64,000 bases of DNA from a bacterium. Lineage in GTDB: Bacteria; SAR324; XYD2-FULL-50-16. Of the stretch, positions 44,080-60,136 are shown in pieces. Position numbers and translations under genes: made by a program. Within the stretch, counting starts at the first letter, position 1. Each line of letters opens with the position of its first letter. The stretch lies in NCBI GenBank assembly GCA_024275165.1, contig JAJRZQ010000019.1, positions 1 to 64,000 of the forward strand, given 5' to 3'. The notes under the pieces are model-generated. The model saw only the letters and a program-made list of their open reading frames with translations, searched no databases and was not told where the DNA came from.

Positions 44080-45600
44080 ATGGAAGATCAATTATGGAGC
44101 TGGCTCCAGGGGGAGGAATGGAAAAGCCCCTTATTTTTAGAGGTACAAGAAGCTTTAGGCATGGGCAAAGAGTTGGATTTGGCAGGCGAAGAGATCGACA
44201 GCGCTCAACTGACCCAAGCCCTGCACCCCTCCCAGAGCCAAGGCATGGAGCGCGAATCAAGTTGGAACCGGGTACTCAAGGCCCTGTCGGGGGCATTGGT
44301 TTTAAAGGGAGGGGGTGACCCGCAAGACTACTTTGCCGCCTATGACCAACATATGCGGTATGCCTTGCAAGCCTTGGCCTTGATTCGAGGAAAAGAGGCC
44401 CCAACAACCTGGCAAGAACTCAGCAACCGGGATTTCGCCTTTATCCCCCCGGTGATTCTTTATTTTCGTATTGATGAGCTCAACGACCCTGTTTTAAGAC
44501 AACTCGGGGAGTTGATGAGGCAAGAGAGGGAGTTTAAGCTGATTCTTGTGCAGACTCAAATCCACGCTACTGTTTCGCGCCTGGGAAGAAGTGTAACCTT
44601 AAATCCCCATTGGGATGTGGGTTTTTGGGGGCTTTTTTTCCGCACTTATTTTGTGTTGCAGATTCCTGCGCATTTACCGGCCCTTAAAACAGAGGTTCAA
44701 CGAGCGGTTTCAAGCCCTCGCCCGGCGTTGATCTCCATCTACGCCCCCGCTGATTTGGCTTTATCCGAGTTGGCCTTGCGGACCCGAGCCTTTCCCTATC
44801 TACGCTATGACCCTGAAGAGGGGCTTTGTTGGCAAGCAACCCTCGACCTGTCTTACAACCCGGAGCCGCGACAATTGTGGGCGCTGGAGGCGAATCAAGA
44901 AGAATTAAATTTGGGGCACTTTCTTTTTCGGCAGAATCCATCTGCCTTTACCCCCTTTATGGGTGATGGGGTTCCGGTGCGAGATTGGTTGGAGGCAGAG
45001 GGGACAAAACCGGTTTTTTTGTCCATGGACCAGCAAAAATGGACTCTCACCCCAACGCAACAAGAAAAAATTCTTTCCCAAATTCAGCTTTGGGGCAACC
45101 TTCAGGCCATGGCCGGGCAGGCAAAGGGGGGTGACCCCGGCCTTGTTGTGGACTGGGAAGAAAAAATAGACCTAGAACGCCAAAAAGCGGTGACCAAGGC
45201 ACTGCAAACCTTGTCGGCTAAGCTTTTAGGGGTGACCTCGGTTGATTTTACGGGCTCGGAGTTGAAATTGAATTTGGGCTCCCATGGGGAGGAGACAAAA
45301 ACAAAGAGGGAAAAGAGTCGCTTGGAGAAGCCCCTGCCCGTGGCGCAAAGCTCAGAAACAGCCTGGATCGAAACCCCTCTATGCACCGCCTGTGATGAAT
45401 GCACGGGGATCAATCCAAGAATTTTTGCCTATAATCAAGACAAACAAGCCTATGTCAAAGATCCGGCTGCCGGCCCCTACGCTGATTTGGTCAAGGCGGC
45501 GGAAAAGTGTTCCGCCTCGATTATTCATCCTGGGGCTCCCTTAAATCCAAAGGAGAAAAATTTAGAAAAATGGATCCAACGAGCCGCAAAACTCGGGTGA
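44080..45600 (+). CDS. PFOR-C-terminus-like protein with a terminal 4Fe-4S ferredoxin domain
   Basis: A protein of about 506 residues. The part from about residue 100 to 270 (SNRDFAFIPPVILYFRIDEL, SSPRPALISIYAPADLA, AFPYLRYDPEEGLCW) resembles the region of the neighbouring PFOR that includes RRPALFNLYCTC and AYPYFVYDPDLGD. The C-terminus carries a ferredoxin motif, CTACDECTGINPRIFAYN with later EKCSASIIHPGAP. It lacks TPP and pyruvate domains, so it cannot be catalytic alone and may act as an accessory electron-transfer subunit of KorAB. ATG 44080 was chosen; a TTG at 44065 overlaps korB. The exact role is unknown. Confidence 0.75.
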   Translation: MEDQLWSWLQGEEWKSPLFLEVQEALGMGKELDLAGEEIDSAQLTQALHPSQSQGMERESSWNRVLKALSGALVLKGGGDPQDYFAAYDQHMRYALQALALIRGKEAPTTWQELSNRDFAFIPPVILYFRIDELNDPVLRQLGELMRQEREFKLILVQTQIHATVSRLGRSVTLNPHWDVGFWGLFFRTYFVLQIPAHLPALKTEVQRAVSSPRPALISIYAPADLALSELALRTRAFPYLRYDPEEGLCWQATLDLSYNPEPRQLWALEANQEELNLGHFLFRQNPSAFTPFMGDGVPVRDWLEAEGTKPVFLSMDQQKWTLTPTQQEKILSQIQLWGNLQAMAGQAKGGDPGLVVDWEEKIDLERQKAVTKALQTLSAKLLGVTSVDFTGSELKLNLGSHGEETKTKREKSRLEKPLPVAQSSETAWIETPLCTACDECTGINPRIFAYNQDKQAYVKDPAAGPYADLVKAAEKCSASIIHPGAPLNPKEKNLEKWIQRAAKLG

Positions 45601-45619
45601 TTGAGTTGGTCGGCGCAAG

Positions 45620-45699
45620 CATAGGGAATGATTTTTTTTGCAAAAAATCATTAAAAAAAAGGAGTGTTATTTTTTAGCTATAACCCTTGATTCCCTATG
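45620..45699. repeat. Perfect 10-bp inverted repeat enclosing an AT hairpin
   Basis: CATAGGGAAT (45620-45629) and ATTCCCTATG (45690-45699) are perfect inverted arms about 60 bases apart. Inside lies an 11-bp A/T stem (45627-45637 with 45642-45652) followed by an A-run and a T-run. It may terminate the korAB block, or the arms may be operators for the next operon. Nothing protein-coding is seen in 45601-45910. Confidence 0.5.
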
Positions 45700-45797
45700 G
45701 TCAGCCTGGAAAAAACTCGGATGCGTACAAGATTTGCCCTCTTTGATTTTTTTTAGGAAGCGTTGCTGAAGGGGCTTTTTCACAATTCATTTATATA

Positions 45798-45826
45798 TTG
45801 ACTATATGACCAGTCGTCTTTAGAAT
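45798..45826 (+). promoter_or_regulatory. Sigma-70-type promoter of the ergothioneine-type operon
   Basis: TTGACT (45798-45803) and TAGAAT (45821-45826) are separated by exactly 17 bases: five of six -35 and five of six -10 consensus positions. The start codon of the first gene is 84 bases downstream, leaving a leader of about 75 nucleotides. No riboswitch was recognised in it. Confidence 0.65.
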
Positions 45827-45910
45827 TGCGTACAATGAGTGATTTTATGTTTTTGCAGCGGTTCGCTTTTGAACCAGCCATAAACTTCATTCTACTCCTC
45901 TAGGATTTTT

Positions 45911-48097
45911 ATGCCTGTGATCCGTTGTCTAAAAAATGGCCCCTATCAAGTTGAAGACTTGCCCCGTCTGAGGGATCCACAAAAAAACGAGCTTGCGACC
46001 CCTCAAAAAATCATGCTGTGCCGCTGCGGCAAATCAAAGAGCAAACCCACTTGCGACGGCACCCACCAAGAAGTCGGGTTTACCTCAAATAAGGAAACCG
46101 CTGGAGAATGGAACTACCGCGGCAATTATGCGGGAAAAAACATAACGATTCACGATAACCGTGGGATTTGCTCCCACGCGGGCTATTGCACCTCTGGTTT
46201 GCCGCAGGTTTTTTTACAAGGGGTGGAACCCTGGATTCAACCCGATCAGGCCACGCTAAAAGAGGTTTCCGAAACCATTGATCAATGCCCTTCGGGTGCC
46301 TTAAGCTATTCGATTCAGGGGGTTGAGCAGCGAGATCGGTCGCAAGAACCGGAGATATCCATCTCCCTCAACGGCCCCTATGAGGTAAAGGGTGGCCTTG
46401 AACTCGACTTAGGGGGGGAGCCATGGGGCGAAGGCGCGAGCCAGGAACATTATACCCTGTGCCGTTGCGGTGCCAGTAAAAACAAACCTTTTTGCGATGG
46501 AAGTCATTGGCACGCAAAGTTTCGCGATGATGATAAAATCCGCATTGCCATGCCCGCCGAGATCAAAGCAGGGCTCAACTCCGTTGAGGCCGAGGGGGTT
46601 GAACTGATCGTGCTTCGTTTTGGTGATGAGTTTAAGGTTTTTTCCGGTACCTGTCTGCACCAGGGGGCAAAACTCGGTGAAGGCATTTTAGAAGAAGGCA
46701 AAGTCGTTTGCCCTGCTCATGGTTGGGCCTATGACGCTCAAACCGGCTGTTTGGAGGGGGAAGACGCGCAATGCCTTTCCAAACTCGAATGCTGGGTCGA
46801 ACCCTGGGATTTACTGGTCGAGAGGTCGGCCCTCGCGGCCTTGTCGGGCGCGGGCCTGCCTAAGCCCGTTCCCACCGAGGAAGAGCCCTATGTTGCCTTG
46901 ATTCACCAACTCGCTGAAAAGGGCTTGGAGCATAGTCATGGGCCTGTGGTGGCCATGGGGGTTCCGCGCTCTCAACTGCCCGATTGGAATGATTTACAAT
47001 TGCTCGCGGCCCAACTGCACCGTTTTCCCTTGCTTGACGAGGAGCCGATTCATACCCAGACTGTCATTGGGCCTTCTGCGAAAAAGCCGCTTCAGCTCGA
47101 CATCCCTATTTTTGTTTCGGACATGAGTTTCGGGGCGTTGAGCTTTGAGGCAAAAACCGCCTTGGCTCAAGGGGCTAACGCCGCTGGAACGGGGATTTGT
47201 TCCGGGGAAGGGGGGATGCTGGCAGAAGAGCAGGCGGTAAACCAACGCTATTTTTATGAATTCGCCTCGGGGCGTTTTGGCTTTGATTGGGAAAAGGTAA
47301 AAAAGTGTCAAGCCTTTCATTTTAAGGGGGGGCAAGGGGCAAAAACAGGAGTGGGCGGCCACCTCCCCGGGAGCAAGGTCACGGGGAAAATCGCGGAAAC
47401 CAGAGGCCTGGCAGTGGGGCAAGACGCGATCAGTCCGGCCCGTTTTCCAGAATTTACCTCGCTCCAGGATTTTAAATCCTTAGCGAATGAAGTTCGGGAA
47501 AAAACCGGGGGGATTCCCATTGGCTTTAAATTATCGGCCCAGCATGTGGAAAAAGACCTTGCCGCTGCTTTGGAAATCGGAGTAGATTATGTGATTCTCG
47601 ATGGTCGCGGCGGGGGGACGGGAGCGGCGCCCGATGTGGTTCGAGATCATATTTCGGTTCCCCTGATGGCGGCTCTGCCCCGGGCCAGGAAATTCTTAGA
47701 TGAAGCAGGCAGAACCGATATCACTCTGGTGGGAACCGGTGGTTTGCGCCTTCCCGCTGATTTTGTGAAAGCCTTGGCTTTAGGGGCCGACGCGGTCGCG
47801 ATCAGTAATTCGGCGATGCAAGCCATTGGCTGCCTTGGCGCGAGAATTTGCCATACCAACCAATGCCCTGCCGGAATCGCCACCCAAGACCCGGTTTTGC
47901 GCCGTCGTTTGGATGTGGAGCGGGCCGCGGCTCGTCTGGCCCGATTTTTTACCGCTTCGACTCAATTGATGTGCGTTTTGGCTCGCGCTTGCGGTCATTC
48001 CAGGTTAAGCGATTTTCAGCCCTCTGACTTAACCAGTTGGAAAGAAGAAATCGCCCGCTTGGCTCGGGTTTCTTATGCTGGCGACTCAAAGCTTTAA
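45911..48097 (+). CDS. Multi-redox-centre glutamate-synthase-like protein (CDGSH, mono-cluster ferredoxin, CDGSH, Rieske, FMN/[3Fe-4S])
   Basis: A 728-residue cytosolic protein made of successive redox modules. CDGSH 1: C37, C39, C48, H52 (CRCGKSKSKPTCDGTH). A divergent mono-cluster ferredoxin domain: C87, C93, C126. CDGSH 2: C184, C186, C195, H199. Rieske: C248-x-H250 and C267-x2-H270. From about 330 comes a GltB-like FMN barrel: MSFGALSFEAKTALAQGANA, GQGAKTGVGGHLPGSKV, and the [3Fe-4S] motif ARICHTNQCPAGIATQDP. The glutaminase domain of glutamate synthase is absent. It is 18 bp upstream of the molybdopterin/desulfurase fusion and shares its promoter. It probably channels electrons to or from that enzyme; making glutamate from free ammonia is the alternative. 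Confidence 0.88.
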   Translation: MPVIRCLKNGPYQVEDLPRLRDPQKNELATPQKIMLCRCGKSKSKPTCDGTHQEVGFTSNKETAGEWNYRGNYAGKNITIHDNRGICSHAGYCTSGLPQVFLQGVEPWIQPDQATLKEVSETIDQCPSGALSYSIQGVEQRDRSQEPEISISLNGPYEVKGGLELDLGGEPWGEGASQEHYTLCRCGASKNKPFCDGSHWHAKFRDDDKIRIAMPAEIKAGLNSVEAEGVELIVLRFGDEFKVFSGTCLHQGAKLGEGILEEGKVVCPAHGWAYDAQTGCLEGEDAQCLSKLECWVEPWDLLVERSALAALSGAGLPKPVPTEEEPYVALIHQLAEKGLEHSHGPVVAMGVPRSQLPDWNDLQLLAAQLHRFPLLDEEPIHTQTVIGPSAKKPLQLDIPIFVSDMSFGALSFEAKTALAQGANAAGTGICSGEGGMLAEEQAVNQRYFYEFASGRFGFDWEKVKKCQAFHFKGGQGAKTGVGGHLPGSKVTGKIAETRGLAVGQDAISPARFPEFTSLQDFKSLANEVREKTGGIPIGFKLSAQHVEKDLAAALEIGVDYVILDGRGGGTGAAPDVVRDHISVPLMAALPRARKFLDEAGRTDITLVGTGGLRLPADFVKALALGADAVAISNSAMQAIGCLGARICHTNQCPAGIATQDPVLRRRLDVERAAARLARFFTASTQLMCVLARACGHSRLSDFQPSDLTSWKEEIARLARVSYAGDSKL

Positions 48098-48115
48098 TTC
48101 GGGCGGAGCGCGTTT

Positions 48116-51100
48116 ATGAATCAACCAAAAAAGATTTCTTCCCAATCCAATTCGGGTTTTGTCAAAAGCATTTGCGGTATTTGCCCCGCTGGTTGTTGGG
48201 TAGAGGCGCGCTTAGACGCAAAGGGAAAGCTGAGCGAGGTTCGGGCTGACCCGGATTCAAGTTTTGGGACTATCTGCCACTTAGGTGAAGCGAGTACCGA
48301 GATCGTCTACGCTAAAGACCGCATCCAAACCCCGCTGAAGCGGGTCGGCCCCAAGGGGAGTTTTCAGTTTGAGCCCATCACTTGGGATGAGGCAATGGAA
48401 CTCATTGCCCAAAAACAATTGGATTTTAAAGAGCAATATGGGCCGGAGTCCCTGGCTATCTACACCGGCAGGGGGAGCTTTGATTTAAGTCTCTGCGATG
48501 TTTACCAACCTGCCGGGGTTGCCGTTTCCTCTGCCGCCTCGGTGCTTTTTCCTCTTGGCAGCCCCAATACTTTAGGTGTAGGGGCGCTCTGTTATGTTTC
48601 CTTTGCCATGATCGCCCCTCATGTGACCTTGGGCGGCATGCTCACCAACATGTATTCGGATATTGAACAGGCTGAAATCGTGGTGATTTGGGGCGCGAAT
48701 CCCGCCACCGACAGCCCTCCTTTGGATTACCAGCGCATCACCGATGCCCATGCCCGAGGGGCAAAGATCATTGTCATTGACCCCAGGGAAACCGCCCTGG
48801 CTCGATTAAAAAATGCCCAATGGGTGCCGACTCGACCGGGTACCGACGGGGCCTTGGCTTTAGGCTTGTGCCAGGTGATCATCGCCGAAGAACTATATGA
48901 CGAGGGCTTTGTCAAAGACTGGACTTTAGGTTTTGATGAATTTGACAGCTATGCGCAGCATTTTCGCCCCGAAGTGGTGGAAAATATTACGGGCGTCCCG
49001 GCAGAGGTGGTGGTTGAACTGGCCAGGGAAATCAGCGCGGCAAAAGGGGCGGCCCCGGTGATGTATTCCGGTTTGGAATATAGTGAGTCTGGGGTGCAGG
49101 CGATTCGGGCAACCTTGGTTTTATGGGGCCTGGCAGGGCAGTTGGATGTTCCTGGCGGGCGTTGTTTTACCATGCGGCAAAATCATTTTCAGGTCAATCG
49201 GGATGGCTTGGTGGCCAATCCTTGCCCGGATAAAGCCTTGGGGCGGGATCGTTTTCCCGTTTACAGCCACTACCGGGGAGAGTCGCACGCGATCAGCCTT
49301 CCCGAGTCCGTTTTGGATGCCAAACCCTACCGGATTCGCAGCCTCATTATTTTAGGCGGGAGCATCATCACCTCTTGGCCGGAACCAAAAAAATGGCGCA
49401 AAACCCTAGAAAATCTAGATTTTTTAGTCACCATTGATCGGCAATTAACCGCGGATTCAGCCTATGCCGATATCGTGCTTCCGGCCACCACGGGGTATGA
49501 AATCGACAGTTACATGGTTTATGGCCCTATATTTAAGATTCGTGAACGCTTGATTGAGCCGGTCGGCTTGGCGAGGAATGATTTTTTTATTTTGGCTGAT
49601 TTGGCAAAGCGCTTAGGCTATGGACACCTTTACCCCCAAAGCAAAGAAGAGTTGTATGCCTATGTATTGAAGGGAACAGGCTACAGCTATGAGCAGGTGA
49701 AGGCCAACCAAAACCAGGTGAGCCTGCAAACCCAGATGATGGAATATAAAAAATGGGAAAAAGGTGGCCTGCGGGCCGATGGAAAGCCTGGTTTTGATAC
49801 GCCCAGCGGCAAGCTGGAAATCGCCTCCAGCTTATTGGAAGAATATGGTTATAATCCGCTTACTGTTTACACCGAGCCCGCCGAATCGCCGCTCTCGCGG
49901 CCTGATTTAGCCAAGGAGTTCCCCTTAGTGTTTAATTCCGGCGCCAGGGTAACCACCGATTTTCGCAGTCAGCACCATGGGGTTGCCAGTTTATCGAAGG
50001 TTCAGCCTGAACCGGTCGTGACCTTAAATAACAAAGATGCCGCTGCCAGAGGGATTGAAGAAGGCTCTTGGGTTGAGGTGAAAAGCCCCCGCGGCGCGGT
50101 CGCCATGCGGGCTTATGTGACCGAGAGAATCGTCCCCGGAGCCATTGATGCCAATATGGGCGGTGGTGGCCCCATCGGCCCCAAGGCATGGCAAGAAAAC
50201 AACATCAATGAATTGACGAATTTGTCTCAGTTTGACCCCATTTCGGGGTTTCCCGTTTACAAGGCTTTGCTCTGTGATGTATTGCCTTTACAGGGGGATA
50301 AGCGCGCGACCCAGAGTGGAGAATACACAGCGCCCCAAACCCAACACAAAGCCGTAACGCGTCGGGTTTATTTTGACCACAACGCCACCAGCCCGCTCGC
50401 CCGCTCGGTGAAAGAGGCCATGATTGCCCACTTGGATGATTTTGGAAATCCAAGCAGCATCTACAGTGAGGGGAAAAAAATCAGGGCCCTGCTGGATCAA
50501 GCAAAACGCCATTTGGGGCAGTTGCTCAACTGTACGGCAAAACGCCTGATTGTGACTTCTGGCGGTTCCGAGGCCAACAACCTCGCGTTGAAGGGATTGT
50601 TGCATTTGCGTGGCAAGCGCAACCGCTTGATTACCAGTCAATTTGAACATCCTTCCATATTAAAGGCCTGCCGACAATTAGAGGCCCAAGGCATTGAGGT
50701 CACCTATTTGCCCGTGAGCAGCCAGGGAGTGGTTACGCCCCAGGCCTTGACCGATGCCCTTGATGATGATTGTTTTGGAGTCAGTATTATGCTGGCGAAT
50801 AATGAAGTGGGGAGCCTGCAACCTATCGCGGAATTGGCTGAAATCGCTCACCAAAACGGGGCTTGGTTTCACTGCGACGCGGTGCAGGCCGTGGGGAAAA
50901 TTCCCTTAGATCTAACTCAATTGCCCGTGGACGCCTTGAGTTTGTCGGCCCATAAATTCCACGGCCCCAAGGGGGTCGGGGCCTTGTTCCTACGCAAGGG
51001 GTTCGAGTTGGAACCCTTGATCGCCGGTGGCGCACAAGAGTACGGGGTGCGCGGGGGCACGGAAAACAGCCTGGCCTTGATCGGTTTGGGTAAGGCGGCT

Positions 51101-51511
51101 GAAGAGGCGGTTAAGAACTTAGCTCAATTTGCCCAGGTGGCCCAACTCCGAGATCAATTAGAACAGGGGATTGTAACCCAAGTTCCCGGGGCGGTGATCA
51201 ACGCCGCAGGGGCAAACCGCTTGCCCCACTGCACGAATATCACCCTACCCCAAACTCGGGGGGAATCGCTGGTCTTAGCCTTAGACCAACGGGGTTTTGC
51301 CTTGAGTTCTGGTTCCGCCTGTCAATCGGGCAGCCCGAAACCTTCTCACTGCCTCTTGGCTTTAGGCTTGAGCGAAGCCCAAGCGCACTGCTCGATTCGC
51401 TTAAGCCTTGGCATTGAAAACACAAAAGAAGAGGTTGAATTGTTTTTAAAGTCCCTGCAAGAGTTGTTTGCCGGATCCGCCCAGTTGATTCGTTTTGTTC
51501 CCTGTCGCTAA
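48116..51511 (+). CDS. Metallopterin-dependent ergothioneine synthase-like fusion: molybdopterin oxidoreductase plus cysteine desulfurase
   Basis: A 1131-residue fusion. Residues 1 to ~735 are a DMSO-reductase-family molybdo/tungstopterin enzyme: 4Fe-4S ligands C20, C23, C27, C54; a probable metal-ligand Cys159 in GVGALCYVSF; VIWGANPATDSP; and a C-terminal pterin-binding domain. Residues ~750-1131 are a complete NifS/IscS-type cysteine desulfurase: YFDHNATSPLA, TSGGSEANNLALKG, PLP-lysine SAHKFHGPKG, and the active-Cys loop SSGSACQSGS. The same two-module layout was reported for the ergothioneine synthase of Caldithrix abyssi, where the desulfurase feeds sulfur to the pterin site for trimethylhistidine. 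The next gene is egtD, which makes that substrate. Assignment to this function is strong but inferred; a sulfurated formate-dehydrogenase-like enzyme is the alternative. Confidence 0.9.
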   Translation: MNQPKKISSQSNSGFVKSICGICPAGCWVEARLDAKGKLSEVRADPDSSFGTICHLGEASTEIVYAKDRIQTPLKRVGPKGSFQFEPITWDEAMELIAQKQLDFKEQYGPESLAIYTGRGSFDLSLCDVYQPAGVAVSSAASVLFPLGSPNTLGVGALCYVSFAMIAPHVTLGGMLTNMYSDIEQAEIVVIWGANPATDSPPLDYQRITDAHARGAKIIVIDPRETALARLKNAQWVPTRPGTDGALALGLCQVIIAEELYDEGFVKDWTLGFDEFDSYAQHFRPEVVENITGVPAEVVVELAREISAAKGAAPVMYSGLEYSESGVQAIRATLVLWGLAGQLDVPGGRCFTMRQNHFQVNRDGLVANPCPDKALGRDRFPVYSHYRGESHAISLPESVLDAKPYRIRSLIILGGSIITSWPEPKKWRKTLENLDFLVTIDRQLTADSAYADIVLPATTGYEIDSYMVYGPIFKIRERLIEPVGLARNDFFILADLAKRLGYGHLYPQSKEELYAYVLKGTGYSYEQVKANQNQVSLQTQMMEYKKWEKGGLRADGKPGFDTPSGKLEIASSLLEEYGYNPLTVYTEPAESPLSRPDLAKEFPLVFNSGARVTTDFRSQHHGVASLSKVQPEPVVTLNNKDAAARGIEEGSWVEVKSPRGAVAMRAYVTERIVPGAIDANMGGGGPIGPKAWQENNINELTNLSQFDPISGFPVYKALLCDVLPLQGDKRATQSGEYTAPQTQHKAVTRRVYFDHNATSPLARSVKEAMIAHLDDFGNPSSIYSEGKKIRALLDQAKRHLGQLLNCTAKRLIVTSGGSEANNLALKGLLHLRGKRNRLITSQFEHPSILKACRQLEAQGIEVTYLPVSSQGVVTPQALTDALDDDCFGVSIMLANNEVGSLQPIAELAEIAHQNGAWFHCDAVQAVGKIPLDLTQLPVDALSLSAHKFHGPKGVGALFLRKGFELEPLIAGGAQEYGVRGGTENSLALIGLGKAAEEAVKNLAQFAQVAQLRDQLEQGIVTQVPGAVINAAGANRLPHCTNITLPQTRGESLVLALDQRGFALSSGSACQSGSPKPSHCLLALGLSEAQAHCSIRLSLGIENTKEEVELFLKSLQELFAGSAQLIRFVPCR

Positions 51512-51526
51512 TGAGTGAGAAAAAAT

Positions 51527-52513
51527 ATGAATTTATTTAACCAACCGATTACCTTAGAAAACCACCTCCACCTAGACTTCAGTCAGGAGTTGAAAGAAGA
51601 TATCCGCCGGGGCTTATTGGCCAAGCAAAAACGCATCCCCAGCAAATACTTTTATGATGATCAGGGTTCGCAACTCTTTGAAGAAATTTGCAAAACACCC
51701 GAATACTATGTGACCCGCACTGAATTGGAATTGCTCGAATCCATTGCCGAAGACTTGATGCAGGGGTTTCAGGAGGGGGATTTGGTGGAGCTGGGTTCCG
51801 GTGCCCATTGGAAGATTCAGCGCTTGTTGGAGGCGACGGATTCCGCCCAGCGCCAACGATTGCGCTATCTCCCGATTGATGTGAGTCAAGAGGCCATTCG
51901 GGTCTCTTCCCAGGCCTTGCAGCGGAGGTTTCCTGATTTGGCTATTCATGGTCATATTGCTGATTTTACAGGTAATTTAATCGGTTTAAAGCAAAGCCGA
52001 CCCTTGATGATGATTCTTTTTGGCAGTTCAATCGGTAATTTTGAATTTGACGAGGCGAGGGATTTCCTTCGCAGAGTGACCGCGGACCTTACACAAGAGG
52101 ATCGCTTTTTATTGTCCGTGGACCGGGTGAAGCCTGCTTCGGTTTTACATGCCGCGTACAATGATCAAGCGGGGGTGACCGCGGCGTTTAATAAAAATGT
52201 TCTTACGGTACTCAATCGCCAGCTCGAGGCGGATTTTGTTTTGGAGGATTTCGCTCATAAGGCTTTTTTCAACCTCGAGGCCGAGCGGGTCGAGATGCAT
52301 TTAGTCGCCCAACGCCCCTTGCGTGCCCGGGTGAAGCATCTTGATATGGAATTTGAATTTGCGGAGGGTGAAAGCATTCACACCGAGATCTCTCAAAAAT
52401 ACTCAAAAGAGTCTGCCTTGGCTTTGGTTCAGGCAGCAGGCCTGCAATTAGTGCGATGGTATCATGCCCAAGATGAATGGTTTTCAATCATGGAACTGCA
52501 AAAAGCCAATTGA
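51527..52513 (+). CDS. egtD: L-histidine N-alpha-methyltransferase
   Basis: EgtD trimethylates histidine to hercynine (trimethylhistidine) with three S-adenosylmethionine. Typical stretches: IPSKYFYDDQGSQLFEEICK, PEYYVTRTELELLE, the SAM site LVELGSGAHWKIQRLLEA, PIDVSQEAI, LFGSSIGNFEFDEARDFLRR and YHAQDEWFSIMELQ. An in-frame GTG at 51515 is an alternative start; ATG 51527 gives about 328 residues. It follows the metallopterin/desulfurase fusion directly, completing a two-enzyme ergothioneine route without oxygen-dependent EgtB. A dispersed repeat begins at the base after its TGA. Confidence 0.92.
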   Translation: MNLFNQPITLENHLHLDFSQELKEDIRRGLLAKQKRIPSKYFYDDQGSQLFEEICKTPEYYVTRTELELLESIAEDLMQGFQEGDLVELGSGAHWKIQRLLEATDSAQRQRLRYLPIDVSQEAIRVSSQALQRRFPDLAIHGHIADFTGNLIGLKQSRPLMMILFGSSIGNFEFDEARDFLRRVTADLTQEDRFLLSVDRVKPASVLHAAYNDQAGVTAAFNKNVLTVLNRQLEADFVLEDFAHKAFFNLEAERVEMHLVAQRPLRARVKHLDMEFEFAEGESIHTEISQKYSKESALALVQAAGLQLVRWYHAQDEWFSIMELQKAN

Positions 52514-52725
52514 AGGAACCTCTGAAAAACTCCTTGCCTACCGCTTGTTCAAGCGGTAAGTTCGTGCCCTTCGGGCTGATTGTAGCCCTGGGGGCGCGTC
52601 GAGTTTTTCGGTCTTTTCGGTTGTGAATGAAATCCACAATCCCAACGCGAATCAATAAGTCGCGCTTTTTGATTTGGCAAGGCATCCCTGCCTTGCTGGG
52701 AAACTCCGCGTTTTTCAGAGTTTCC
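52514..52725 (-). repeat. Dispersed hairpin-rich repeat, copy A
   Basis: A 212-bp element with inverted ends (AGGAACCTCTGAAAAA at the egtD side, TTTTTCAGAGTTTCC at the far side). It contains several internal hairpins: TACCGCTTG/CAAGCGGTA, GCCC-GAA-GGGC type, and GGCAAGGCA/TGCCTTGC type. It is inverted relative to copies B and C. The egtD-side end starts at the base after the egtD stop codon. A short minus-strand open frame inside it is a by-product of the repeat, not a gene. Confidence 0.88.
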
Positions 52726-53134
52726 TGAATCGTAAGCTGGAACCTTAAACCGTGGAGGGCAAATAGCGTATGCTGTGCTTTGGGGTTGTTGGTTGAAATA
52801 AAAATATTCTACATTCTAATCCTGTATTTGATTTCTTCGCCCTTTTTCGCCTTTTCACCCTCCTTTGTTATCTTACAGGGAAAACATAACCCAGCTGCGA
52901 GGGGGGCTGTTTCCTGACCCGAATCCCTTATATTGATAAGCCAGGCGGCCCTTTAGCCCCTTGTCATTTTTCCCGCTCAAATGGCTTTATATTTTTTCAA
53001 GAAAGGCTTCTTTACCTGGGTAGAGAACTTGGGTACCCTCAAGCGTAGCCCAGCGGCAATTTTAGAACAAAATTGAGTTAGTCTACGCATCTTTTCAGGA
53101 TTATAAAAACCGAAGCTGTGTCTTAGAGGGAACC
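52726..53134. other. Intergenic leader upstream of the NRPS-PKS gene
   Basis: About 410 bp with no coding frame, tRNA or recognised riboswitch. It is richer in A/T than the flanking genes. A perfect 7-bp hairpin (CAATTTT, loop AGAAC, AAAATTG; 53057-53075) sits 60 bases before the start codon and could be an operator. TATAAA near 53103 may be a -10 box, but no convincing -35 was found. AGAGGG precedes the ATG. Confidence 0.5.
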
Positions 53135-56100
53135 ATGTCACAACAAGATACTTGGAGGGAACTCTCCATAGGCCAAAAGTCCTTTTTCTTTTTCTACCAA
53201 GCCTACCCCGAAGCCCCGGTATACAATGTCAGCTATTTTTGGACGGTTGAAGGGGAGTTGGACCCTGATCGTTTAGGGGATTGCCTAGCGCAAATCATTG
53301 AAAAGCATGAGGTGTTGCGTACTACCTTTCACCTCAAATCGGGCCAACCCATGGGCCAGGTTCGTAGTGACCTTCCCCTCCCTTTTTGCGTACAGGAAGT
53401 TGGTGATTGGACTCCAAGCCAGCTGGAGCAATGGCGACAGCAAGAAAACCGAACCCCCTTCGACCTCTCCAGCGAGGTGCCCTGGCGTTGGAATTGTCTG
53501 TTGCAAAAAGGGAAAGCTCTTTGGCTATCGGTAACCTGGCACCATATCTGCAATGACCTGTGGTCTCATATGCTTTTGATGAGGGAGTTAAAACACCTCT
53601 ATGGCGGACTCGACCCCTTTAGCCCAGAGCGGCCCTTTTACGAGGCCGTGGAGCAGAAAAAAAAATGGCTTGAGGGGCCCCGGGCCGCCAAGCAGCTCGC
53701 CTATTGGCAGGAAAGGCTTGTAGACGCTCCCCCCCTGGAAATGCCCTGTGACCAACCCTTAAGCGGTGTCCCCCGTTTTGAGGTCGGCCGCCTGCAAGAG
53801 GAGGTACCGCCACCCATTGCTCAGCGACTCGCGGAGTTGGCCCAAGAAGCGAAAACCAGTGAGTTCACCCTGTATCTTTCTTTGCTTCAGCTTTTGTTGC
53901 ATCGCTATTCGGGGCAGGAGCGGTTTTTTGTTGGCGCGCCCATGGCGGGGCGCAGCGGGGATGCCTTTGCCCATACCGTTGGCTACTTTGTGAATATTAT
54001 CGCTTATGAAGCGGATTTTTCCGGTCAACTTAGTTTTTTACAGTTTTTAGATATCCAGCACCAACAGGTGCGCCAGAGCCTGCGGCGCAAGGATTACCCC
54101 TTTTTTCTCTTGCTCAAGCAGTTGGGGTCTCGTCGGGATTTGCAGCGTCCCGGGGTTTTTCAAGTTGCCTTTGGCTGGGAAGAACCCAATTCCTTTTTAT
54201 CTCCTCAAGCTCCAATGGTCAGCCAGGAATACGGTCAACGAGAAACCTGGGATTTAGGAAGTTTCAAGCTCCGTTTAACTGCCAAGTGGCAGGTTACCGA
54301 GTTTGATTTGGTCTTGCGTATCGCCAACAACACCAATAATCTGAAGATAGATTTAGAATACAATCGCCAACTCTTTAGTCCTCAGCTGGCTGAGGACCTC
54401 TTGACCAGTTTTCAAGTGCTGCTGAGCGAGGTCGCTCAGGAGGCGAACCGCCCCCTTTCCAGCCTGCCTTTGCTTTCTTCAGAGCAGAGGCACCGCTTGG
54501 TAAATCAATGGGGCAAGGGGCCTGGTCAGCGTTGTGATTTTGGTTCTTTTGTGGGGCTGGTCACAGATTGGGCAACAAAACAACCCAGGGCTCCGGCATT
54601 GGAAATGGAAGGTCAGGTGATGAGTTATCAAGAGTTGGATCACCGTTCCAATCAATTGGCCCGTTATCTGCGCCAAGAGGGGGTAAAGAGGGGAGAAATC
54701 ATTGGGCTTTATACCCAACCCGCCTTAGAGCGAATTGTCGCCCTGTTGGCGATTCAAAAGGCAGGGGCCGCCTATTTGCCCTTGGACCCGAGTTACCCTT
54801 GGGATCGTTTGGAATTCATGATGAAAGATACCCAGCTCAATTGGGTTGTGGGTCTGGAAGGGATGGAGGTCTTGGGTCAAGGGGTCAAGACCTTCAATGT
54901 CAAGGAGAAGTCGGCCCAGTGGCGGAGTTGCTCTGGAAAACCTTTGCAAAACCAGGTAGGGCCGTCAGACTTAGCTTATGTAATCTATACTTCCGGTTCC
55001 ACGGGGGAGCCAAAAGGCGTTTTGTTGGAGCATCAAGGGCTGGTTAATTTAGTTTGCTCCCTGCGAGGGATTTATCAAATTCAGCCCCTGAGTCGCGTTT
55101 TGCAATTGGGCAGTCTCAATTTCGATATTTCTCTTTTTGAAATCGCCTTAGCTCTGGGTTCAGGGGCTTGCCTCGTGCTGGCCGCCAGGGAAAAGCTCTG
55201 GCCGGGGCCGGGCTTGGTCGAGCTTTTGGCAGAGCAGAGGGTCTCTCATCTTTTTATCACCCCTTCCAGCCTGGCCGCGCTGCCTCATGGAGAGTTGCCC
55301 CATTTGAAGGCGATTATCGCGGGAGGGGAGGCCTGTTCACATGGCTTGGTCGCCCAGTGGGGCAAGGGGAGGCGTTTTTTTAATGCCTATGGGCCTACGG
55401 AAATCACCATTGCGGCCACGACCGCGGAAGTGAGCCCAGAAGATGAAACGGTTCCCCTAGGCCGCCCCTTAGCCAATCTGAATCTGTTGGTTTTGGATCA
55501 AGTCGGGAACTTAGCCCCTCCGGGGGCTACCGGGGAGCTGTACATCGGTGGGCCCGGGTTGGCCCGAGGTTACCTCAACCAAGCGGATTTGACCGGACGC
55601 CGTTTTGTTCCCTCACCGCTGGATCCCAAACAACGGCTTTATCAGACCGGCGATTTGGTGCGTTACCGTTTTGACGGCCAATTGTTGTACCTAGGCCGGG
55701 CAGACCGACAGATCAAGATTCGGGGTTTTCGGGTGGAGCCCGGTGAAATCGAGGTGCGACTTTTGCGGTACCCGGGAATCAAACAGGTCAAGGTCATCGA
55801 CAATCCGCCCAATAGCCAATTGGTGGCCTACTATCTGCCCCAAGGGGTCGCGCCCAGTGCCGCTAAACTCAAAGACTTCTTGAGCGAACAATTGCCCCCT
55901 CAATTGGTTCCTTCGGGTTTTGTCGCGCTGACCGCCTTTCCCTTGACCGCCAATGGAAAGCTGGATGTCCTTCGCCTGCCCCTACCTTACGCGGAGGCGC
56001 AAGCTGAGGCGGAAAGCTCACCCGCCTTAGAGGGGCAAGGTGGCCGGGCAAAGGTGGCTCAGATTTGGAAAAAGGTTTTGGGGCATGGGAATTTTGGTCT

Positions 56101-59100
56101 CCAAGACAACTTTTTCGATGTGGGGGGCGACTCGCTGCTTTTGGTTCAATTGCATCATTTTCTTGGGGAATGGACAGAAGAACCAATTCAGTTGATGGAT
56201 CTCTTTAAAAATCCCACCATTGAACGCCTTGCCGAGCTGATAGGGGGAGGCCCCTTGGAGGCGCAAACTCGGAGCGAGGCAAAGACCTGGCAGGGGGAAG
56301 AAATCGCGGTGATCGGCATGGCGGGGCGTTTTCCCGGCGCGGCCAACCTCGATGAACTGTGGGAACTCTTGTCCCATGGCAAGGAGGGGATTCGCCGCTT
56401 TTCCTTAGAGGAATTGCGTCAAGCGGGGCTGGAACCAGAGTCACTGGACCACAAAGATTATGTGCCCTCTTTAGGTTGGTTGGAAGGGGTCGAGTTTTTT
56501 GACGCCCCCTTTTTTGGTTACTCTCCCATTGAAGCGAAAAGCATCGACCCCCAGCAACGGATTTTTTTAGAGACCGCTTGGCACGCCTTGGAAGACGCGG
56601 GCTGCGACCCAGATCAATTTAAAGATTCGATTGGGGTTTTTGGCGGTTGTGGGTCGAGTGGCTATTACCGAAATCATCTCGCCCCCAATGAGAGCTTATT
56701 GGAGCAGTTGGGCAGTGTTCAGGTGGCGCTGGGCAATGAAAAGGATTTTCTCTGTAGTCGAGTGGCTTATAAACTCAACCTCACCGGGCCGGCAATGACG
56801 GTTCAAAGCGCTTGTTCCACTTCCTTGGTGGCGATTCACCAAGCTTGCCGCTCTTTGTTGAAAAACGAATGCGAACTCGCTTTGGCAGGGGGAGCGTCGG
56901 TGATTGACCCGATCAAGACGGGGTACCGCTATCAAGCAGGCGGGATTTTATCTCCCGATGGTCATTGCCGCCCCTTTGACGAAAAGGCCCAGGGTACCGT
57001 TCCCGGTCAGGGGGTCGCTTTGGTCGCCTTAATGCGCCTGGAGCGAGCCTTGGCCGAAGGCTACCCCGTCCGTGCAGTGATCAAGGGTTCGGCGATCAAT
57101 AACGACGGTTCGGACAAAATGGGTTTTACCACCCCGGGAATCAAGGGGCAGGCTCAGGCCTTGCGCTCTGCCTTAGAGGCCTCTGGGCTTTTGCCCGGTG
57201 AAGTGGGTTTGATTGAGGCGCATGGAACCGCGACAATTTTGGGCGACCCGGTGGAAATGGCCGCCATCAGTGAAGTTTACGGGGATCGCGGCCCCAGAGG
57301 CGAAGCTTGTTTTGTCGGCTCCATCAAAGGCAACTTGGGGCATTTGGATAGCGCGGCCGGGGTGACGGGGGTGATTAAGGCGGTGCTGGCTCTAGAAAAA
57401 CAAGTGATTCCGGGAACCCTAAATTTTCAACGGCCAAACCCCAACATCAAGCTGGAGGACCGGGTCTTTCGCTTTAGTGGTCAAGCGGTGCCTTGGCCCA
57501 GCAAGGGGGCTTTGCGTCGGGCGGCGGTCAGCTCTTTCGGGTTGGGGGGGACCAACGCCCATTTGATTTTGGAAGAGGCCCCGAGGCCCCAGGAATCCCC
57601 ACCTCCACAACCGCCGCCCCATCTCTTGGTTTTATCGGCAAAAAGCCAGGTCGCCTTGCTGCAAAAGGGCAAGGACTTGTCTCATGCCCTTCAGGCTCAG
57701 CCTGAGCTTGATTTGGCTTTGGTGGCCCAGACTTTGGCGCGGGGGCGCAAGGTTTTTGCTTATCGCGGTTCTTTGGTGGTCGAAGATTCCAAGGAAGCGA
57801 TTGCTCGCTTGGAAGAGCTGAGCTTGATGGATGAACTTCCCCCTGCCAACCCTGTGGGGCCGGTTTTTTTGTTTCCCGGGCAGGGGACGCAATATGCGGA
57901 TATGGGTCGGCAGCTCTATGGGCGCTTTCCCCTCTATAAAAAAAATCTGGATTATTGTGCCGAAGTCTTTGCCGATTTAACGGGGAGCGACTTTCGCAAA
58001 GACCTCTTTCCCAGCAAGGCAAATCGAGGTTCCGCTTCGGAGAGGTTGAGCCAGGTTTGGTTGACCCAGCCCGTACTCTTTGCCACGTAATACGCTTTGG
58101 CCCGCCTCTGGATGGATTTCGGGTTGATGCCCTCGGCTCTGTTGGGGCATAGCCTGGGGGAGTATGTAGCCGCGGCCCTGGCTGGGGTATTTACTTTAGA
58201 AGAGGGGGTGAAGATCATCGCGGAACGGGGTCGCTTGGTGCAACAACTGCCCCAGGGGGATATGATCAGCCTGGAAACGGATTTAACTCAGCTTAAGCCC
58301 TGGTTGGAAGGGGATTTGGATATTGCGGGAATCAATTCCTTAAAGTCGATTGTGGTTTCCGGTTCCCGTGAGGCGGTGCATCGCTTGAAGCTTAGGGCGC
58401 AACAAGAGGGGGTGCGTTCCAAACGGCTGTTTACCTCCCATGCCTTTCATTCGAGGATGCTCGATCCCATTTTGGATGAGTTTCGTAGCGTGATGCGGCA
58501 GGTAGAACTCAAACCTCCGAACATCCCCTTTTTGTCCAACCGTCATGGGGATTGGGCGGAAAAATATGGGCCGGATCAGGCGGATTATTGGGTAAATCAT
58601 CTGCGTGGCCCCGTTCATTTTGCCGATTGCGCGGCGCGGCTTTTACAAGAAGAGGCAAAGCGAACTTTTTTAGAGGTCTGGCCTGGGTTTGTCTTGAGTT
58701 CGTTGATGCATAGCCTCAACGAGTTTACCAAAGGGCATAAAACCTTGCGGAGCTTGCCCACGGGCAGTGATGAAGATGAGGTTCGGCGTTTTTTTAGCCT
58801 CTTGGGAAAGTTTTGGGAGGAGAATGCCTTGAGCGATTTAAGCAAACTCAACCCCTCGGCCCGTCGCCTCTCCTTGCCGGGTTATCCTTTTGAGAAAAAA
58901 TCCTATTTCGTGCCTCGTGCCGTGGCTCCGCCGGGGGCAAAAGGGGGAGGGGAAATCCTTAGGGTTGCCACGGAGAAAGCAGCGCCCCAGGTAAAGCAAA
59001 AGGCCGCGACTAAACCCCAGCCAGATAAACCTTTACCGAAGTTGGAACAAGAAACCCTACAACTTTGGAAAGACTTTTTGCAACAAGACGACTTGAGCGT

Positions 59101-60136
59101 GCAGGATGATTTTTTTGATCTCGGTGGGGATTCCTTGATGGCGATTCAATTAGCCGCGCAATTGGAGAAAAAATTCAAACTCCCCCTTTCGGGGCATGTG
59201 ATTTTGCAATATCCAACCCCTGCCAAGCTCGCCGCGGCTTTGCGGGAGCAACTCTATAAAGATACGGGAAAGACCCAACGCCAAGCCCGAGACTTGCGAC
59301 AACAACTCTATAAACCTATTGAGGAAAGCCAGAGTCAAAAGAGCTTTCAATTTGTCGTTCCCCTACAGCAGCAGGGCCCAGGCACCCCGATTTTTTTGTT
59401 TCCCACCGGTGGGGGGTTTGTTTTGTATTATCGGGATTTTGTTCGCCGCATGGGGGAGGAACAGCCAATTTTTGGTTTTCAGGCTCGGGGGTTGGATGGG
59501 AAAGAGCCTCCCTTTGAGCGGATCGAAAGCATGGCTTCAGCCTTTATCGAAGAATTGGTACAACTCTGCCCTCAAGGCCCCTGCATCATCGGAGGGGCTT
59601 CTTTTGGCGGGATGGTGGGCTATGAGGTTGCCCGGCAGTGGGTTGAACTGGGGCGGGAGGTGGAACTGCTCTTTTTGATTGATTCCCCCGGGCCGGGGCA
59701 AATGCCCACTCGCTTTGACAACAATGTGATGATCATCCAAGAACTGGTGGGGGACGCCTTGAATCTAAATCTACAAGAATTGTCCTTGATGTCGGCAGAG
59801 GAACAGGTGAATTATGTCTTTGAGAAGGCGCGCTTAGCCAACTTACCCAATCTTTTGCCTAGAGAATTCGGCATTCCCTTTTTGACGGTGACCAAGGCCC
59901 ATATGAGCGCGATGTTCGCCTATCAGCCTCAGGCCTTAAATCAACGCTTGCTTTATTTTCGCCATAGTGAGCCCCTGCAGCATTACCCCTCTCACCCCGA
60001 GCGGCCTTGGGTTGATTTATCTCAGGGAAACATTGATATTCGTACCATTCCGGGCAATCATTATACGATGAACTTCAACCCTCATGTGAATTGGATTGTA
60101 CAAGAAATCAAGCGGCAAATCTCTTTAAGGTCTTAA
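53135..60136 (+). CDS. Hybrid NRPS-PKS synthetase (C-A-PCP-KS-AT-ACP-TE), in-frame TAA at 58088-58090
   Basis: A 2333-codon single-gene assembly line. Condensation domain with HHICND (H136-D141). Adenylation domain with YTSGSTGEPKG, FNAYGPTEITIA, YQTGDLVRYRFDG and GRADRQIKIRGFRVEPGEIE. PCP with GGDSL (S1000). Ketosynthase with SACSTSL (C1227), EAHGTA and NLGHLDSA. Acyltransferase with FPGQGTQ, GHSLGE (S1673) and a malonyl-type HAFHS. Second carrier GGDSL (S2000). Thioesterase with GASFGG (S2156). No reductive domain is present. TAA at codon 1652 falls inside LFAT-x-YALARLW, 21 residues before the acyltransferase Ser; the frame continues unbroken after it. Stopping there would lose AT, ACP and TE. 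Repeat copies in opposite orientation flank the gene. Confidence 0.92.

Follow-up and report, generated by a model that had tools for sequence, protein, structure and literature searches.

A SAR324 bacterium carries a predicted two-gene operon for oxygen-independent ergothioneine synthesis

What does a metallopterin enzyme do when it is fused to a cysteine desulfurase and followed by a histidine methyltransferase gene? The question is raised by a locus in the window analyzed here, a stretch of 64,000 nucleotides from a bacterium of the SAR324 lineage, where a generic annotation as molybdopterin oxidoreductase or cysteine desulfurase would miss an ergothioneine pathway. The first-pass annotation had read one unbroken frame of 1131 codons, and positions 48116..51511 (+) indeed form a single open frame that runs from ATG to stop with no internal stop codon, a length with a chance of about 7e-22 at the local GC content. 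In the 1131-aa product, Pfam recognizes Molybdop_Fe4S4, Molybdopterin and Molydop_binding (residues 15-717) followed by Aminotran_5 (residues 751-1110). This confirms that the gene encodes a DMSO-reductase-family metallopterin module and a complete NifS/IscS-type cysteine desulfurase in one chain.

The metallopterin (bis-MGD) module covers residues 1-722 (48116..50281, +), and its best relative in the PDB is acetylene hydratase (2e7z). It carries the Fe4S4 cysteines 20, 23, 27 and 54, which are invariant in 19 full-length homologues, and Cys159 (codon 48590..48592, +), the predicted Mo/W ligand. Cys159 aligns with the tungsten-ligand cysteine of acetylene hydratase in the motif GSPNxxxxxxC and is invariant in 34 of 34 aligned relatives, whether fused, unfused or truncated. 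A linker (residues 723-748; 50282..50359, +), weakly conserved in the alignment and modeled with low confidence at residues 737-747, leads to the cysteine desulfurase module (residues 749-1131; 50360..51508, +). This second module is full, as had been claimed, matching Aminotran_5 with an E-value of 5.5e-69 and the NifS model TIGR03402 with 429 bits, and its fold matches solved NifS/IscS structures (target TM about 0.85-0.92). It shares with NifS and IscS the fold, the PLP lysine and the catalytic loop cysteine but differs from them in being fused to a pterin module and in having a C-terminal tail that ends in Cys-Arg/Lys. The PLP-binding lysine is Lys947 (codon 50954..50956, +) in SLSAHKF, the persulfide cysteine of the desulfurase loop is Cys1069 (codon 51320..51322, +) in SGSACQSG, and two further cysteines follow, Cys1092 (codon 51389..51391, +) and the penultimate residue Cys1130 (codon 51503..51505, +) in the C-terminal sequence RFVPCR. 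The cluster cysteines, Cys159, the PLP lysine and the loop cysteine all sit where the first-pass annotation had put them. In the predicted structure of the fusion (mean pLDDT 77, pTM 0.61), the metal site and the C-terminal tail are poorly modeled, as one would expect of a cofactor-free model. We also observed a cysteine at the end of the pterin module, Cys720 (codon 50273-50275, +) in a KALLC motif, which is invariant in the fused and unfused relatives that extend this far; we noticed no discussion of it in the 2022 paper introduced below (PMC9516567).

In 2022, Beliaeva and Seebeck described the metallopterin-dependent ergothioneine synthase (MES) of Caldithrix abyssi, CaMES, a protein of 1136 aa (PMC9516567). 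This is the report to which the first-pass annotation pointed, and the enzyme has the two-module build stated there. CaMES binds its Fe4S4 cluster through Cys14, Cys17, Cys21 and Cys48, the metal through Cys153 and PLP through Lys952; Cys1074 and Cys1135 are essential relay cysteines, while Cys1097 is conserved but less important, with a two-fold effect when mutated (PMC9516567). Activity depends on the lysine, both relay cysteines and the cysteine that binds the metal, and the reaction is reversible (PMC9516567). A 1136-aa Calditrichota protein (L113, genome G086) has all nine of these residues at exactly the published positions; it is either the synthase of C. abyssi itself or an identically numbered ortholog. 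The alignment check suggested at first pass was therefore made through L113. The window protein shares 63% identity with L113 and retains equivalents of nine out of nine published residues, the metal ligand included: C20, C23, C27, C54, C159, K947, C1069, C1092 and C1130. These residues are invariant across the 19 full-length homologues, and the penultimate cysteine is found in every complete fused MES examined. The window protein thus resembles CaMES in module order and size (1131 versus 1136 aa), in the cysteines for the Fe4S4 cluster and the metal, in the PLP lysine, in the pair of relay cysteines, in the penultimate position of the C-terminal one and in the link to a histidine methyltransferase gene, but comes from a different phylum.

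That methyltransferase gene is egtD, encoding histidine N-alpha-trimethyltransferase (51515..52513, +). As claimed at first pass, it directly follows the fusion: its frame opens 3 bp past the MES stop codon, and its product scores 346.4 bits against the NCBIfam equivalog TIGR03438, above the cut-off of 290.9. The start may equally be the GTG at 51515 or the in-frame ATG at 51527. Against the solved EgtD (PDB 4pim), the product scores 215 bits and keeps the YY motif as well as the IGN and TExS substrate motifs. Scans of 45400-53400 for promoters and terminators returned about as many sites as shuffled sequence.

The association extends well beyond this locus. MES occurs in many phyla in our survey, and in many records egtD is a neighbor of the fused gene, on one side or the other and on either strand, among them the phylum-mate G001 and about a dozen named records that represent other phyla. 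The co-occurrence survey proposed at first pass revealed a strong link: egtD is present in 23/26 genomes with fused MES (a count that includes truncated rows of the fused clade and one partial match at the edge of a contig) and in 1/9 genomes with unfused relatives (Fisher p 6e-5, indicative only, related genomes not being independent). Other known routes to ergothioneine, through the O2-dependent sulfoxide synthase EgtB or the rhodanese EanB, have the EgtD step and the product in common with the MES route but use unrelated enzymes for sulfur insertion. EgtB was not found in the window genome (completeness 98%, contamination 0.3%), where the best match reaches 72 bits over the C-terminal part of the model only, against a cut-off of 360. 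For EanB, the rhodaneses of this genome were examined in part; in each of the two that we read, a lone rhodanese domain is joined to unrelated domains. The genome hence encodes a histidine methyltransferase adjacent to MES and, with EgtB absent and EanB partly examined, no other sulfur-inserting enzyme that we could find. The window host makes molybdopterin, since MoaA is present.

We placed the N-terminal module in a rooted, quick maximum-likelihood tree of 69 N-module sequences (SH-aLRT supports, no bootstrap), with related pterin enzymes of unstated function as outgroups and formate dehydrogenases compared only in the PDB ranking. The fused proteins all fall in one clade (43 rows, SH-aLRT 95) that holds the window protein, its phylum-mates from G041 and G001 and the Calditrichota proteins. 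The module thus groups with the C. abyssi-type enzyme and apart from the outgroup pterin enzymes, the placement on which the first-pass reading had been staked. By sequence and by fold, its closest solved relative is acetylene hydratase 2e7z from Syntrophotalea (Pelobacter) acetylenica, with thiosulfate reductase and formate dehydrogenases ranking behind it, and the Fe4S4 site and the cysteine metal ligand of the two proteins align. Could the fusion be an acetylene-hydratase-like enzyme with a different substrate? We regard this as extremely improbable: identity is only about 25%, 2e7z has no desulfurase module, and the comparison suggested at first pass, which aligned the tungsten-ligand cysteine with Cys159, put Pro24 at the position of Asp13. 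Asp13, which we take to be the catalytic residue (2e7z numbering), lies by the Fe4S4 site; in MES the corresponding position, between the second and third cluster cysteines, is nearly invariantly proline. The window protein therefore has neither the aspartate nor the lack of a desulfurase domain that mark an acetylene hydratase. It is also very improbable that the fusion is a generic molybdopterin oxidoreductase (a formate dehydrogenase or a thiosulfate/polysulfide reductase) whose desulfurase only sulfurates its own cofactor in an FdhD-like manner, with egtD a chance neighbor. Desulfurases do supply cofactor sulfur to other Mo enzymes (PMC9516567), and the Fdh-alpha, PhsA and DMSO reductase models do match the N-terminal module, but no generic model comes anywhere near its cut-off (Fdh-alpha, 294 versus 666 bits; PhsA, 253 versus 694), so that the thresholds of the formate dehydrogenase and thiosulfate reductase families are not reached. 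Membership of the fused clade with the Calditrichota proteins, retention of the MES-specific relay cysteines and an egtD co-occurrence that spans many phyla argue against it as well.

A different alternative would keep the protein within the MES family but change its task, as an enzyme sulfurating or selenating another histidine derivative or as an ergothioneine desulfurase running mainly in reverse. The family has evidently diversified, with unfused relatives in hut, MttB and OvoM-like contexts, and the published enzyme is reversible (PMC9516567). We nevertheless consider this very unlikely for the window protein, which is fused, is nested deep within the clade linked to egtD and is itself followed directly by egtD.

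The window protein is clearly a new example of the enzyme type described in 2022, and we infer its own activity from sequence. Judged on the same grounds, the locus is very probably a two-gene operon for oxygen-independent ergothioneine synthesis by EgtD and MES. The first-pass proposal of a C. abyssi-type pathway is supported by the nine retained residues, the position in the fused clade, the co-occurrence with egtD, the absence of EgtB and the capacity to make molybdopterin. In this operon, EgtD would trimethylate histidine to N-alpha-trimethylhistidine, and MES would insert sulfur at the imidazole C2 of this substrate without oxygen. In CaMES, the PLP module loads cysteine sulfur onto the loop cysteine; within that chain, the sulfur then goes to the C-terminal cysteine and the metal centre, which passes it to trimethylhistidine (PMC9516567). 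By analogy, the PLP module of the window protein would move cysteine sulfur onto Cys1069, leaving alanine, and a persulfide relay would carry it to the mobile C-terminal Cys1130 and on to a Mo/W-bis-MGD centre held by Cys159; we infer each relay step from residue conservation. The imidazole of trimethylhistidine may then attack the metal-bound sulfido, yielding ergothioneine and a reduced metal that would be re-sulfurated, the metal-sulfido chemistry being a proposal of the CaMES authors (PMC9516567).

The setting of this pathway appears less strictly anaerobic than had been thought. The 2022 report found MES in about 55 genomes, of anaerobes only (PMC9516567), and the first-pass annotation had likewise implied a strictly anaerobic setting. 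This does not hold for the window host, which, unlike the organisms of that report, encodes an aa3-type heme-copper oxidase subunit I (L123, G000:C39:1-1482; TIGR02891, 515 bits; truncated at the contig start) and is probably not a strict anaerobe. Among its phylum-mates, G001 carries another aa3-type COX1 and G041 a cbb3-type oxidase; the occurrence in strict anaerobes described in PMC9516567 is thus not seen in these three genomes, which are fragmented assemblies. Many other MES genomes carry members of the heme-copper oxidase family, some of which may be NO reductases. The oxidase pattern is broad among MES genomes, though individual assemblies may be contaminated. The oxidase subunit of the window host indicates that MES also occurs outside strict anaerobes, and it is no bar to membership of the enzyme type, as strict anaerobiosis is an ecological statement and not a defining property of the enzyme. 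EgtB scores above its cut-off in three MES genomes (G053, G058 and G078), which apparently encode both the oxygen-dependent and the oxygen-independent ergothioneine routes, although mis-binning is possible. The presence of MES in hosts with respiratory oxidases, a few of them with EgtB, bears on why cells retain an oxygen-free route. The phylum and physiology of the window host have not been stressed before for MES.

Two genes that flank the operon were considered as possible partners. Ending 18 bp upstream of MES, 45911-48097 (+) encodes an unusual redox fusion of CDGSH, divergent 4Fe-4S (Fer4_19), CDGSH, Rieske and FMN glutamate-synthase domains. We rejected it as part of the MES system, as it is absent near MES in G041, G001 and the named MES loci; the sole glutamate-synthase-like homologue near a MES relative lies beside an unfused one (L045). 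Downstream of egtD, across a gap of 620 bp, 53135-60136 (+) is an NRPS-PKS gene (C-A-PCP-KS-AT-ACP-TE) with one in-frame stop at 58088-58090, inside the acyltransferase domain. There is no evidence that it uses ergothioneine, and it is not beside MES in G001.

The tree also holds several unfused clades in which the desulfurase is missing and the cysteines for the Fe4S4 cluster and the metal are retained. One of them, of 7 rows, is sister to MES, and its union with MES is supported at 100. It comes from Dethiosulfatarculus sandiegensis (NZ_AZAC01000003.1, L046:7019-10193) and six further genomes of the same phylum, Desulfobacterota (L134-L139). In all seven genomes, the pterin gene is preceded, at a distance of about 10-30 bp, by a methyltransferase gene; no further neighbor is common to the four regions that we read more widely. 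This methyltransferase begins with a Trm112-like segment and scores 89-113 bits against the OvoA C-terminal family, under the cut-off of 170; among solved proteins it is closest to OvsM (5-selenohistidine N-methyltransferase), OvoA and OvoM. None of the seven genomes has an OvoA sulfoxide-synthase module above cut-off. The pterin enzymes of this clade end in a conserved LGCVG, mostly DP(T/S)LGCVG. These features suggest a candidate oxygen-independent pathway to ovothiol or ovoselenol; we found no description of such a metallopterin ovothiol route in the literature searched. The pairing of an unfused sister clade with an OvoM/OvsM-like methyltransferase goes beyond the 2022 report, as does MES in a host with an aa3-type oxidase subunit. 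The CaMES authors speculated that related molybdenum enzymes sulfurate other heterocycles (PMC9516567), and this sister clade makes their speculation directly testable. A broader picture, which we offer tentatively and judge somewhat likelier to fail than to hold, is that MES is one branch of a wider metallopterin family sulfurating or selenating histidine-type imidazoles. Within it, the Desulfobacterota clade may provide an oxygen-free route to 5-thiohistidine or ovothiol (or ovoselenol), with sulfur delivered in trans by a separate desulfurase, and MES may also provide an oxygen-independent supply of ergothioneine to oxygen-respiring hosts.

Other unfused relatives occur in further contexts. 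A TGA in the homologue from G031 (L003) was considered as a selenocysteine codon and rejected; it is an ordinary stop that ends an unfused protein. In G023 (L102:6093-15464), an unfused MES-like protein lies inside a histidine-utilisation cluster (hutH, hutU, hutC, MES-like, hutI, hutF), and a role in the catabolism of thio-histidine or ergothioneine is possible. The HutH of this cluster is not supported as an ergothionase, scoring 254 bits against histidine ammonia-lyases versus 143 against the ergothionase 6s7j, and for the urocanate hydratase of the cluster hutU (940 bits) is a better match than the thiourocanate hydratase models. In two Chloroflexota records (L041:1242-4940 and L050:938-4639), unfused MES-like genes adjoin genes for MttB-family (quaternary amine) methyltransferases.
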